Source of the DNA: Vicinamibacterales bacterium
GTDB taxonomy: Bacteria; Acidobacteriota; Vicinamibacteria; Vicinamibacterales; 2-12-FULL-66-21
Direction: 5' to 3'
Assembly (NCBI GenBank): GCA_035699745.1
Contig: DASSPH010000060.1
Span: forward strand, 1-64,000
DNA length: 64,000 bases
The notes under the pieces were generated by a model that saw only the letters and a program-made list of their open reading frames with translations, searched no databases and was not told the DNA's origin. The position numbers and the translations under genes were made by a program. This document shows positions 29,897 through 36,192 of the stretch, in pieces. The first letter of the stretch is position 1. Every line of letters starts with the position of its first letter.

Positions 29897-32800
29897 ATGG
29901 CTGCCGCCTACGGCACCGCCGGACGGATCGCGGCCGCGTTCATCCACTCCAGGCTGACGCCGCTGTTCATTGCCGCGTCGATGGCGCTTGGCGTACTCGC
30001 CGTGGTGGCGCTGCCGCGGGAAGAGGAGCCTCAGATCATCGTGCCGATGGTCGACGTGTTCGCCGGGATGCCGGGAGCGACGCCCGCCGAAGTGGAACAG
30101 CGCGTGACGCGTCCGCTGGAGCAGCTCCTGTGGGAAGTGCCCGGCGTGGAATACGTCTACTCGACCTCGAGCTCCGGCCAGTCGATGGTCGTCGTCCGAT
30201 TCACGGTGGACGAGCCGCAGGAGCCCGCGCTCGTTCGCCTCAACCAGAAACTGGCGGCGAACGCCGATCGCATTCCCCCGGGCGTCATCGGACCGCTCGT
30301 CAAGCCGCGGTCGATAGACGATGTGCCGATCCTGGCCGTGACGGTGTGGTCGGCGCGGTACGCGGACGATCAGCTGCGATCGCTCGCCGCCCAGCTTCGG
30401 GACGTCATCGCTGAAGTCAACGACGTGTCGGAGGTGGCGATCATCGGCGGCCGTCCGCGGCAGGTCCGCGTCGACATCGATCCCGCCAGGCTGTCGGCCT
30501 ACGATGTCGACCCGCTGTCGGTTCAGCAGGCGATCGCTCGCACCAACGTGCGCGGCGCCGTGTCGGGTCCGGTCGCGGGCGGGCTGGTGACCGGTCTCGA
30601 AGTCGGAAGCCGCCTGCGTACGCCGGATGACCTGCGCAACACGGTCGTCGCGTCCCGAAGCGGCCGTCCGGTGCTGGTGCGCGACGTGGCGGAGGTGGTC
30701 GACGGCGACGCCGAGCCCGCCTCCTATGTGACCTTCCTGTCGAAGTCGTCCGGCGCGCACCCGGCCGTCACCATCTCGGTCGCCAAGCGGAAGGGCACCA
30801 ATGCCACCGACGTCGCGCGCCGGGTGGCCGACAAGCTCGAGACCCTCGAGGGTTCGCTCGTGCCCTCGGACGTGCAGCTCACCATCACCCGCGATTACGG
30901 TGAGACGGCAGCCGACAAGAGCAACGAACTGCTCTGGCACATGCTGCTCTCGGTCCTCTCGGTCTCGGCGTTGATCTGGGCGGCGCTCGGCCGGCGCGAG
31001 GCGGCGGTCGTGCTGATCGCCATTCCGGTCACGCTCGCGCTCACGCTCTTCATGTTCTACCTCTACGGCTACACGCTGAACCGGATCACGCTCTTCGCGC
31101 TGATCTTCTCCGTCGGCATCCTGGTGGACGATGCCATCGTCGTCGTGGAGAACATCGTGCGCCACGCACGGATGCGCGGGGGTGAACAGGGGTTGACCGC
31201 AATTGCGCTGCGCGCCGTCGACGAAGTGGGCAACCCCACGGTGCTCGCAACCCTGACCGTGGTGGCGGCGATTCTGCCGATGGCGTTCGTTCGCGGCCTG
31301 TCGGGCCCCTACATGCGGCCGATCCCGGTGGGCGCGTCGGCGGCGATGATCTTCTCACTGGCGGTTGCCTTCGTGGTGACTCCCTGGGCCGCGGTCCGTC
31401 TGCTCCAGCCCTCCGCGCCGGCGCATGCCGCCGAAGACCTGATCACGCGTCTGTACCGCCGGGTGATGGGACCGCTGATCGCGAGCCGCAGGAGACGCGC
31501 GATCTTCCTGACGGCGGTCGCGGCCCTGCTGCTGGCGGCAGTGGCGTTCGTGCCGCTCGGGCTCGTGACGATGAAGATGATGCCGTTCGACAACAAGAGC
31601 GAGTTCCAGGTCATGATCGACATGCCTGAAGGAACCGCGCTCGAGGCGACGGCGCGCGTCGCGTCGGCGTTGGCGTCGGCCACCCTGCAGGACGAGACGG
31701 TGGTCAACGTCCAGCAGTACGTGGGCACGTCGGCGCCTTACAACTTCAACGGGCTCGTTCGACACTACTTCCTCAGGCGCGCCCCGCACCTCGCCGACCT
31801 GCAGGTGAACCTGGTGCCGAAGGCGGAGCGTCGGGTGCAGAGCCACGACATCGCCGGTCGCGTGCGCGAGCGGCTGCTGCCGATCGCCAGGCAGTTCGGC
31901 GCGACCATCCAGGTGGCGGAAGTGCCGCCCGGGCCGCCCTCGCTGCAGACCCTCGTCGCGGAAGTCTACGGGCCCGATCCGGCACGGCGGCTGGCCCTGG
32001 CGGCGCAGATCAAGTCGATCTTCGAGCAGACTCCGGGGGTGGTCGATACCGACTGGTACGTCGAAGACCCGCACGCGAAGATCACGCTCGCGGTTGACAA
32101 CGAAAAGGCCGCCGCGGCAGGCCTCTCGCCGGCGGCGGTTGCGGCCGTCGTACGGATGGCCGGGTCGGGGGAGTCGGCGGGCCTGCTGCACGACGAGCGG
32201 GCGCGCGAGGACGTGCCGATCGTGCTTCGGCTGCCGCGCGGCGACCGCAGCCTCGAGGCCGTGCAGTCGATCCGTCTTCGCGGCACGAGGCCGGTCGCCG
32301 TCGGCGAACTCACCAGCGCCGTGACGTCGCAGGACGGGACGAGCCTCTACCACAAGAATCTGCAGCCGGTGACCTATGTGACCGGCGACCTGGCGGGAAA
32401 GAACGGCAGTCCCGCCTACGCGATCATGCGCATGAACGAGGCGATCGGACGGCTGACGCTGCCCGAGGGGTATGGCCTCGACGTGTTCAACGCCGTCCAG
32501 CCGTTCGACACGTCGCGATACGCGATGAAATGGGACGGCGAGTGGCACCTCACCATCGAAGTGTTCCGCGATCTCGGCCTCGCGTTCGCCGCCGTGCTGG
32601 TCCTGATCTATGTGCTGGTGGTCGGCTGGTTCCAGTCGTTCAAGACGCCGCTGCTGATCATGATCGCCATTCCGTTCTCGCTGGTCGGCGTCCTGCCGGC
32701 GCACGCCGCGGCGGGGGCGTTCTTCACCGCCACGTCGATGATCGGCTTCATCGCCGGCGCGGGAATCGTCGTGCGCAACTCGATCATCCTGGTCGACTTC

Positions 32801-33082
32801 ATCGAGCTGCGGCTGCGCGAAGGGCTTCCGCTCGAGCAGGCGGTGATCGACGCCGGCGCGGTGCGGTTCCGGCCGATGGCGCTGACCGCCGCCGCCATGA
32901 TCGTCGGCGCCGCCGTCATCCTGTTCGATCCGATCTTCCAGGGGCTGGCGATCTCGCTGATGGCCGGCGAAGTCGCGTCGCTCCTGTTGTCGCGGCTGGC
33001 CGTCCCGGTCCTCTATTACATGGCGAACCGCCACGCGCGCCGCGAACCGGCAGCCGGTGACGCGATGGAGGCGGTGGCGTGA
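29897..33082 (+). CDS. RND-family efflux pump permease
   Basis: A 1061-residue inner-membrane proton-driven pump with the RND layout: membrane helix 1 at about 20-40, a large periplasmic loop, helices 2-6 at about 350-490, a second loop, and helices 8-12 at about 890-1040. The proton-relay motif in helix 4 reads [14 protein letters not shown] with the two Asp of drug-type (HAE) pumps, and the N-terminal EEEPQIIVP and [15 protein letters not shown] are typical. It lacks the signature of metal pumps seen in the other RND protein of this window. It is likely to export organic compounds. Confidence 0.9.
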
Positions 33083-33086
33083 CTGG

Positions 33087-33875
33087 TCAGTCCGCCGATC
33101 GAACAGCCGTCAGATTGACGCCCACCACTCCATAGCGCCGGGCCGTGCGCTCCTTCGAGGTGCCGGCGAAACAGTCGAAGCGCCGGGTGATGGCGACCTC
33201 GCCGAAACCGCGGCCGGCGAACACGTCGATGAGCTCTGCTTCCAGCAGAGCGCCGGCGATTCAACCGGTCCACAGATCGACGTCTCGAAGCGCGCTCTCC
33301 GGCAGCGTCTCGCTGATGATGATGTCCGCGATCTGCACGCGACCGCCCGGCTTGAGCACGCGGGCAATTTCGGCGACGGCGCGTTCCTTGTCCGGCACGA
33401 GGTTCAGCACGCCGTTGGAGATCACCACGTCGGCGCTACGATCGTCGACCGGCAGGCTCATGGCGTCTCCCTCGCGCACCTCGACGTTCGCCAGTCCGGA
33501 CGCGGCGGCCCCCTCGGATGCCCGGCGGCGCATGGCCGCCGTCATGTCGACGCCGATCGCGCGGCCGGCCGGTCCGGTACGCTTCGCAGCCAGCAGAAGA
33601 TCCATGCCGGCGCCGCAGCCGATGTCGATGACCGTGGCGCCGTCAGGGATCCGGCCAATCGCATGCGGGTTGCCGACGCCCGCAAACGAGGACGTGACCT
33701 CCGCGGGAAGCTCCGCGATCTCGGCCGGCTCGTACCCCAGCACGCCCGCGGCGTATTGCGGGCCGCGGTGAAAATGGAAATCACCCCCCGGCGACGCCGC
33801 GACCCGACCGTAGATCGTCTGCACTTCCGAACGGAAGGTTGCCACGTCGAAACCGATTGGGCAGGTGAGAGCCAC
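33087..33875 (-). CDS. Probable selenoprotein: ArsM-like SAM methyltransferase with Sec205
   Basis: A 262-residue methyltransferase if the in-frame UGA at 33263-33261 is read as selenocysteine. Residues 1-204 hold a class I SAM fold: VIDIGCGAGMDLLL (about 80-93), the acidic loop VREGDAMSLP, and post-motif VLKPGGRVQIADI. After DVDLWTG comes UGA, then IAGALLEAELIDVF and RRFDCFAGTSKE in the same frame, which is recognisable family sequence, with Cys235 as the likely partner of residue 205. ArsM-like enzymes use conserved Cys residues to hold arsenite, one in a C(I/V)xGA context. GTG 33875 has AGGAGG 5 nt upstream. If not recoded, the gene is a nonsense mutant. Arsenic or a related metalloid is the inferred substrate. 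Confidence 0.75.
33233..33251 (-). promoter_or_regulatory. Candidate bacterial SECIS hairpin
   Basis: In the mRNA, GCUCUGCU and AGCAGAGC form a perfect 8-bp stem with a GGA loop. The loop begins 17 nt after the UGA, inside the 16-37 nt range used for bacterial SECIS prediction, and has a G in its first two loop positions as required for SelB binding. The spacing matches that of the E. coli fdhF element closely. Confidence 0.7.
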
Positions 33876-33904
33876 ACACACCTCCTGGAATGCCGGCCAT
33901 CGCC

Positions 33905-33969: not shown

Positions 33970-34893
33970 ATGGAACTGCGCCAGCTGCGCACCTTCGTGG
34001 CGGTCGCCGAACTGCGTCACTTCGCCCGCGCGGCCAGTCTCTGCAGTCTGTCACAGCCCGCCGTGTCGCATCAGATCGCGCTGCTCGAGGAGGAGCTGGG
34101 CGCGCGGCTGCTGAACCGCGCCGCGCGCCGCGTGTCCCTGACGGTCGCCGGCGAGGTCTTTCTCGAAGAGGCGCGGCGGATCCTCGCCGCGGTCGACCGC
34201 GCCCGCGAGCGCATGGAAGAAGTGGCACGCGGGGCGGTCGGCCGCATCCGCCTCGGCGCCACGGCGACGCCCGGTCTCTATCTGCTGCCGCCGGTGCTGG
34301 CCAGGTATCGCGGCGACCATCGTCCCTACGACCTGCGATTGGAAATCGGCCCGATCCACACGATTGTCGAGCGTGTCGCCCGCAACGATCTCGACATGGC
34401 CATCGTCGCCGGCACGCTGCCCTCGGCCGAGTTGCGATCCCGGAGCCTCTCTGAAGACGCGTTGGTGGTGGTCGCGCTCCCCAACGACCCGCTGGCGCGC
34501 GCGCGGACGCTGAAGCCCGCACAACTGGAGGGCGAAACGTGGCTGCTGCGCGAGGAGGGCTCGGATACGCGACGGCAGACGACGGCGTGGTGGCACCGGC
34601 ACCGCCTCGCGCCGGCGCGGACGATGACGTTCGACCACCCCGACGCGGTCAAGCGCGCCGTGATGGGCGGCCTCGGCATCGCCATGGTGTCCCGGCTCAC
34701 CGTCGCCGAAGAACTGGCCGGGCGCCGCCTGGCGGCGTTGCCGGTCAAGGCGGCGCTGCCGGCCCGCAACATCCTGGTCATCGACCATCCGCAGAAACAT
34801 CACGGCGCGGCATGCCGCGCGATGCTGCAGCTGCTCGAGCGAACGTTCCCCGTGCGCCCCGCCGCCGGCCGGACCGGCCGCACGCCTGCCTAG
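33970..34893 (+). CDS. LysR family transcriptional regulator
   Basis: A 307-residue LysR-type regulator: the N-terminal winged helix-turn-helix (about 1-60, FARAASLCSLSQPAVSHQI as helix-turn-helix), a linker helix, then a substrate-binding-like domain (about 90-290) starting with GRIRLGATATPGLYLLPPVL. It diverges from the UGA-containing methyltransferase and is followed by an MFS transporter in the same direction; both have an identical 17-bp site upstream, so it is the likely regulator of both. TAGACT (33958-33963) ends 6 nt before the ATG, suggesting a leaderless transcript. Its ligand is unknown. Confidence 0.9.
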   Translation: MELRQLRTFVAVAELRHFARAASLCSLSQPAVSHQIALLEEELGARLLNRAARRVSLTVAGEVFLEEARRILAAVDRARERMEEVARGAVGRIRLGATATPGLYLLPPVLARYRGDHRPYDLRLEIGPIHTIVERVARNDLDMAIVAGTLPSAELRSRSLSEDALVVVALPNDPLARARTLKPAQLEGETWLLREEGSDTRRQTTAWWHRHRLAPARTMTFDHPDAVKRAVMGGLGIAMVSRLTVAEELAGRRLAALPVKAALPARNILVIDHPQKHHGAACRAMLQLLERTFPVRPAAGRTGRTPA

Positions 34894-34968: not shown

Positions 34969-36192
34969 GTGGAACGCCGGCTCGGCATCCGGGAGAACCG
35001 GGCGCAATTCTCGCTGCTCGTCCTCGTCAACTTCTGCGTGGGCGGAATGGTCGGTCTGGAACGGACGGTGGTGCCGCTGGTGGCCACCGAGGAGTTCCAC
35101 CTCACGTCCGACACGCTGATCTTCTCGTTCATCGTGGCCTTCGGCCTGGTGAAGGCGCTGTCGAACGTCGCCTCGGGCTTCCTCGCGGATCGATTCACGC
35201 GGAAGGCGATGCTGATCGCCGGCTGGGCGATCGGCCTGCCCGTTCCCTTCATGCTCGCGTGGGGCCCCTCGTGGACGTGGATTGTGGCGGCGAATGTCCT
35301 GCTCGGCGCCAACCAGGGATTCACCTGGTCGATGACGGTGGCGATGAAGAACGACCTCGTCGGGGCGCGGCAGCGCGGGACGGCGATGGGTCTCAACGAG
35401 TTCGCCGGCTATGGCGGCCTCGGAGTCACGGCGCTGCTCACGGGCTACATCGCCGCCCGGACCGGGCTCCGGCCGGAACCGTTCTACCTTGGCATCGTCT
35501 ACGCGATCCTCGGACTGGGTCTGTCGGTGCTGGCGGTTCGCGACACCAGCGGATTCCTGCGGGACGCCGCACCGCCGGCAGCCCCGGAGGTCCGCCCGTC
35601 CGGAACGCTCGATGCGGCATCGGCGAGACGGACGATGTTCGGCGTGTGTCAGGCTGGATTGATCAACAACCTCAACGACGGGATGTCCTGGGGCGTGCTG
35701 CCGCTGCTGTTTGCCGCGCACGGCCTGGCGGTCGATGAGATCGGCATCATCAAAGCGATCTATCCGCTGACCTGGAGCGTCGGCCAGCTCGCGACCGGTG
35801 CGCTCGCCGACCGCGCCGGCCGGCGTCCGCTGATCCTGTGGGGCATGATCGTGCAGGCGTTCGCGCTCGGCGTGATTGGTGCGGGCATGCCGTCGACGTA
35901 CGCGAGCGGCGCGCTCGGAGCCGTTCTGCTCGGAGCGGGGACCGCCATGGTGTATCCGGCCCTGCTGGCTGCGGCCGCGGAGATCTCGCCCGCGAGCCGG
36001 CGCGCCACCACCCTCGGCTGGTATCGGTTCTGGCGCGATCTGGGCTATCCCGCCGGAGCGCTGCTCGCCGGCGTGGTGAGCGCGCGGTTCGGCCTGGTCT
36101 GGGCCGTCTACCTCGCCGGCGTCCTCACGTTCGCGTCAGGAGCGATCGCGGCGCGCACCATGAGTGCGAAGCACGACGTGATACACTGCTGA
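34969..36192 (+). CDS. MFS transporter
   Basis: A 407-residue major facilitator protein with twelve predicted membrane helices. The loop between helices 2 and 3 carries GFLADRFTRKAML, the family motif, and its half-repeat copy GALADRAGRRPLIL follows in the second half (about 280-293). It belongs to the drug/metabolite exporter type by appearance. It is preceded by the LysR gene in the same direction and by a LysR-type site, and shares that site with the divergent methyltransferase. An export role for the methyltransferase product is a reasonable inference. The start is GTG with no Shine-Dalgarno. Confidence 0.87.
   Translation: MERRLGIRENRAQFSLLVLVNFCVGGMVGLERTVVPLVATEEFHLTSDTLIFSFIVAFGLVKALSNVASGFLADRFTRKAMLIAGWAIGLPVPFMLAWGPSWTWIVAANVLLGANQGFTWSMTVAMKNDLVGARQRGTAMGLNEFAGYGGLGVTALLTGYIAARTGLRPEPFYLGIVYAILGLGLSVLAVRDTSGFLRDAAPPAAPEVRPSGTLDAASARRTMFGVCQAGLINNLNDGMSWGVLPLLFAAHGLAVDEIGIIKAIYPLTWSVGQLATGALADRAGRRPLILWGMIVQAFALGVIGAGMPSTYASGALGAVLLGAGTAMVYPALLAAAAEISPASRRATTLGWYRFWRDLGYPAGALLAGVVSARFGLVWAVYLAGVLTFASGAIAARTMSAKHDVIHC

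Follow-up and report, generated by a model that had tools for sequence, protein, structure and literature searches.

A putative selenocysteine-containing methyltransferase of the ArsM fold and its FHFHxG lineage in a Vicinamibacterales bacterium

The window analyzed in this study is a 64,000-nucleotide stretch of a Vicinamibacterales bacterium genome (assembly GCA_035699745.1, contig DASSPH010000060.1, positions 1 to 64,000 of the forward strand). On its minus strand, the reading frame of an ArsM-like methyltransferase is interrupted by a UGA codon. This raises the question of whether the UGA is read as selenocysteine (Sec) and, if so, which substrate the enzyme would methylate.

The in-frame UGA codon and its homologues

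The methyltransferase gene (33087..33875, minus strand; 262 aa) runs from a GTG start codon at 33875 to a UGA stop codon at 33089-33087. A Shine-Dalgarno sequence, AGGAGG (33881..33886, minus strand), was found 5 nt 5' of the start codon. The standard table 11 gene call stopped the open reading frame at the in-frame UGA (33263-33261, minus strand) directly after the residues DVDLWTG. Past this codon the frame continues for 57 further codons to the final stop, confirming what the initial annotation had described. Beyond the final UGA, no family-like sequence was found in the frame, which enters the gene for a convergent RND efflux pump (29897-33082); the stop codons of the two genes are 5 bp apart. 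Weaker homologues of the pump were present near three Sec loci only.

Searching the organism's own genome and 59 relatives yielded ten homologues in the relatives, with identities of 45-76% and a single in-frame TGA in each. In wider searches, the aligned codon was TGA in 92 distinct homologues and TGC or TGT in 26, as expected if position 205 is either Sec or Cys in relatives; these counts, and those for the hairpin stem below, refer to sequences related by descent and not to independent cases. The UGA homologues were distributed over about a dozen phyla, namely Acidobacteriota, Chloroflexota, Thermomicrobiota, Gemmatimonadota, Myxococcota, Pseudomonadota, Planctomycetota, Actinomycetota, Thermodesulfobacteriota, KSB1, Latescibacterota, Poribacteria and Nitrospirota, with labels taken mostly from metagenome-assembled records, among which single names may be wrong. 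In a phylogenetic tree, canonical ArsM and the Sec clade were placed on opposite sides (SH-aLRT 99) and few changes between Sec and Cys were observed. Cys forms within the clade were rare; those at loci L127/L132 and L152 lacked the hairpin stem and were located at separate points among the Sec forms. Separate joint losses of the Sec codon and the stem are a classic signature of Sec/Cys exchange.

Termination at the UGA, giving a functional product of 204 aa, would agree with the in-frame stop and with the presence of the SAM-binding domain upstream of it. However, the 57 codons after the UGA are conserved as protein in relatives, including the Cys forms, in which they are undoubtedly translated, making simple termination highly improbable and, for practical purposes, ruled out. 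Even less credible is a nonsense mutation, pseudogene or sequencing error in an ordinary Cys-ArsM gene, which would fit a table 11 gene call ending at the UGA but is ruled out for practical purposes by the conservation of the same UGA, the downstream coding sequence and the hairpin in the 92 homologues.

The SECIS-like hairpin and the selenocysteine machinery

Bacterial SECIS elements are hairpins with a G early in the loop, located approximately 16-37 nt after the UGA. Single-sequence folding and homologue comparison revealed a hairpin of this type at 33233..33251 (minus strand). Its stem, GCUCUGCU/AGCAGAGC, consists of 8 perfect base pairs (33251-33244 paired with 33240-33233), and its GGA loop (33243-33241) starts 17 nt past the UGA, exactly as had been claimed from the window alone. 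Taken by itself, the window hairpin was found to be only mildly unusual, with a fold z-score of -1.0 in single-sequence folding; 1.9% of synonymous recodings of the window sequence paired equally well, and an Rfam search of the window gave no match. In contrast, the hairpin is far beyond chance across homologues. All 8 stem pairs were in place in 74 of the 92 UGA homologues, and at least 7 were present in 85 of the 92 compared to 1 of the 26 Cys homologues. The mean number of stem pairs was 7.6 compared to 5.5 after synonymous recoding of the same proteins. Compensatory changes were observed in the pair adjoining the loop (UA, CG or AU), in the third pair (GC, CG or AU) and in the sixth pair (UA or GC). 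The window hairpin thus agrees with the bacterial SECIS pattern in stem, loop and distance, and it is both conserved and covarying.

The host genome (6.3 Mb, estimated to be 100% complete) was found to encode SelA (527 bits), SelB (L001; 352 bits) and SelD, all over the curated cut-offs, and one tRNA-Sec with the anticodon UCA, so that each component of the machinery searched for is present. The SelD gene (L019, G000:C71:25763-26695) itself contains one in-frame TGA, so the host probably encodes one or more further selenoproteins. SelA was found in 150 of the 193 genomes of this class, and its co-occurrence is therefore weak evidence for Sec. In one genome with a UGA form (G107, 81% complete), no SelA was found.

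In the proposed mechanism, SelB and tRNA-Sec would read the UGA at codon 205 (33261..33263, minus strand) as selenocysteine, with the hairpin 17 nt downstream directing the readthrough. Judged from the sequences compared, the window gene is almost certainly a true selenoprotein gene with Sec insertion at codon 205. The initial annotation had made the same claim, and none of its own refutation tests (missing Sec machinery, a non-conserved position 205, a misread TGC or TGT at this codon) came out against it.

Active site and relation to known ArsM-like families

ArsM ranked first for the window protein in a profile search against solved structures. An AlphaFold2 model with 48 family members as input had a pLDDT of 91.5 and a pTM of 0.90, and its best PDB matches were CmArsM structures, among them 6cx6, the complex with As(III). 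The product, in which the SAM motifs are present, is predicted to be a SAM-dependent methyltransferase of the ArsM fold. In the alignment to CmArsM, Sec205 corresponds to Cys224, Gly155 to Cys174 and Val67 to Cys72, with CmArsM residues numbered on the printed chain and the numbering confirmed by the C72A mutant (5eg5) for Cys72 only. The suggestion that Sec stands in place of the conserved Cys of the C(I/V)xGA site was borne out.

According to PMC5552862, ArsM proteins conserve the Cys72/Cys174/Cys224 triad; in CmArsM, all three Cys are needed for As(III), and Cys174 and Cys224 for MMA(III) (PMC3877260). In every Sec clade member covering these positions, Val, Thr or Ile replaced Cys72 and Gly replaced Cys174. 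Both equivalents were likewise lost in the Cys forms of haloarchaea and Chelatococcus. In the active site of the clade, no chalcogen other than that of residue 205 is conserved. His34, Phe35, His36, Asn69 and Trp202 were invariant among 48 diverse members, and the two His could act as substrate ligands rescuing metalloid binding. Two parts of the initial annotation did not hold. Cys235 was rejected as a partner of Sec205, because Cys at this position is largely confined to near relatives, and most of the family has V, P, T, A or S instead. The view of Sec as a stronger As(III) ligand is unsupported, because the whole clade has lost the Cys72 and Cys174 equivalents, while a canonical ArsM with its full set of Cys (L159:4373-5209) is present in the host.

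The window protein is like canonical ArsM (CmArsM 4fr0 and 6cx6, and the host paralogue) in its fold, SAM motifs and C(I/V)xGA site, but in place of the three As(III)-binding Cys it has V67, G155 and Sec205. Published lists (PMC13188914; PMC9312934; PMC2398784, GOS 2008) include ArsM-like selenoproteins with the motif UxxG, either verified or predicted, among them a verified arsenite methyltransferase (PMC13188914 Table 1; domain NF008823; representative WP_011987699.1). The window protein shares with this entry one Sec, the motif (UIAG = UxxG) and an ArsM-like methyltransferase. In contrast, its score against NF008823 was 213 bits, under the cut-off of 263, and its clade is without the other arsenic ligands.

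Scores against NF041537 (ArsM/AhpD), NF041536 (ArsM/DUF2284) and NF047649 (MTase/UXPK-star selenoproteins) were 213, 203 and 192 compared to cut-offs of 510, 575 and 460, respectively, and the window protein passed no NCBIfam cut-off. The families matched were the same for all 48 clade members, and in 30 further genomes containing clade members no match to NF041537 exceeded the cut-off. The members and near-members of these three families that were examined have Sec at the equivalent position and have lost the Cys72 and Cys174 equivalents, as in the window clade. They differ in having FxYPTG, another hairpin sequence, and C-terminal fusions or a UxPK tail, whereas the window clade has FHFHxG. 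The C-terminus of the window protein is stand-alone, with no fused AhpD or DUF2284 domain, and no UxPK tail (a second, C-terminal Sec) was found in it or in its FHFHxG homologues. Authentic NF041537 members (L181, L182) and UxPK-tailed relatives formed a group of their own in the tree (SH-aLRT 95). On this comparison, the window protein is assigned to a distinct, mostly stand-alone FHFHxG lineage, sister to the catalogued ArsM-like selenoproteins, with neither lineage carrying the arsenic triad. To call the window protein an 'arsenite methyltransferase' is probably incorrect.

Several genomes contained more than one Sec methyltransferase. Two copies lie approximately 10 kb or less apart in one Anaerolineales genome (L101 and L114) and in a KSB1 genome (L103). 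At L107 and L142, two paralogues are near each other; the second clusters with the FxYPTG-type sister lineage, and its separate hairpin is placed differently, at 21-23 nt after the UGA. Two or three paralogues per genome were found in Thermodesulfobacteriota (L183, L184 and L190-L192; G469 and G511), some with a UxPK tail and some continuing into a further domain. At L095, L114, L119, L127 and L132, the methyltransferase frame runs on into a TusA-like domain with the motif GC(G/A)xGPL.

Gene neighborhood and candidate substrate

Divergent from the methyltransferase gene is a LysR-type regulator (33970..34893, plus strand), whose best NCBIfam match was NF040786, the selenium-metabolism-associated LysR, under the cut-off (192 compared to 250). 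A homologue was found near 5 of 79 Sec loci. In the window, the regulator gene is followed by an MFS transporter gene (34969..36192, plus strand), a recurrent neighbor of the Sec methyltransferase. Of the 79 Sec loci, 13 have a homologue of this transporter nearby (12 at E<1e-25), compared to none of 20 canonical ArsM loci; this association alone gave a Fisher p of 0.06. Other recurrent neighbors were an ArsR-rhodanese fusion, a rhodanese-metallo-beta-lactamase protein, DsrE, OsmC and a TusA-like protein, which in some loci also forms a fusion protein with the methyltransferase, together with a type III SQR-like flavoprotein and a truncated globin. The bacterial truncated globin was found beside the Sec methyltransferase at L124:7757-8323 and in five other loci.

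A sulfur-type neighbor was present at 29 of 79 Sec loci compared to 0 of 20 canonical ArsM loci (Fisher p 0.0006) at E<1e-15, a threshold set after inspection and applied to loci that are related and not independent. When all weak matches were included the association vanished (32 of 79 compared to 11 of 20), and only the strict set discriminates. The loose ArsR-rhodanese signal is unspecific, as it was also seen at 10 of 20 canonical loci (E of approximately 1e-6 to 1e-13), where a plain ArsR domain is the probable cause. The sulfur-type neighborhood occurs in a minority of Sec loci, the window itself having only the MFS and LysR genes, and it is support, not proof, for a link to sulfur. OsmC adjoins the methyltransferase gene in Chloroflexota and in haloarchaea, where the methyltransferase is a Cys form, which suggests an old association.

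Very probably, the locus encodes a Sec enzyme of the ArsM fold and FHFHxG lineage that would act on a soft substrate held by one selenolate. Sec205 would most likely hold, or transiently accept, this substrate through a single selenolate bond next to SAM, and the MFS protein may move a related compound across the membrane. We tentatively consider a persulfide, sulfide or related chalcogen compound a likelier substrate than arsenite, because the two- or three-thiolate As(III) site is missing and the neighbors handle sulfane sulfur, although doubt about this assignment outweighs confidence.

The strongest competitor is an arsenic methyltransferase improved by Sec, in which Sec205 would bind a trivalent methylated arsenical with one ligand, such as dimethylarsenite, for methylation by SAM, or would bind As(III) with the help of small thiols or His34/His36. 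The nearest solved structures are ArsM, the closest NCBIfam models are named arsenite methyltransferase, DMA(III) is bound by one cysteine (PMC3877260), and the UxxG arsenite methyltransferase is listed as a verified selenoprotein (PMC13188914). Against it stand the clade-wide loss of the Cys72 and Cys174 equivalents that CmArsM needs, Cys174 with Cys224 for MMA and all three Cys for As(III) (PMC3877260), the NF008823 score below cut-off, and the canonical ArsM with all Cys in the same genome. In addition, no recurrent arsenic-specific neighbor of the Sec methyltransferase was identified. Taken together, the two arsenic variants are fairly unlikely.

Within the preferred single-selenolate reading, the single Sec might capture sulfane sulfur, or selenide or persulfide, from rhodanese-, TusA- and OsmC-like partners, with SAM then methylating the captured sulfur or selenium. 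This specific scheme is possible but, as it stands, unlikely, and a selenium-dependent route of this kind to S- or Se-methylation has not, to our knowledge, been described. The probability left over from the sulfane-sulfur and arsenic readings belongs to a substrate of another kind.

ArsM-like selenoproteins were known before (PMC13188914, PMC2398784), and the definition of the FHFHxG clade adds to them: its members, from Acidobacteriota, Chloroflexota and several further phyla, share one near-invariant Sec and two invariant His (HFH) and lack the arsenic triad. With this kind of selenoprotein already catalogued, the interest for specialists lies in the delimitation of the clade, its lack of the arsenic triad and its sulfur-type neighbors. 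Gene finders cut the protein off at the UGA, and homology alone would file it as an arsenite methyltransferase; FHFHxG Sec genes should not be counted as arsM in surveys of arsenic cycling. The clade raises the testable question of why a methyltransferase needs selenium and what substrate it methylates. If the sulfane-sulfur reading is true, a widespread lineage mislabelled as arsenite methyltransferase would represent a selenium-dependent route of S- or Se-methylation.
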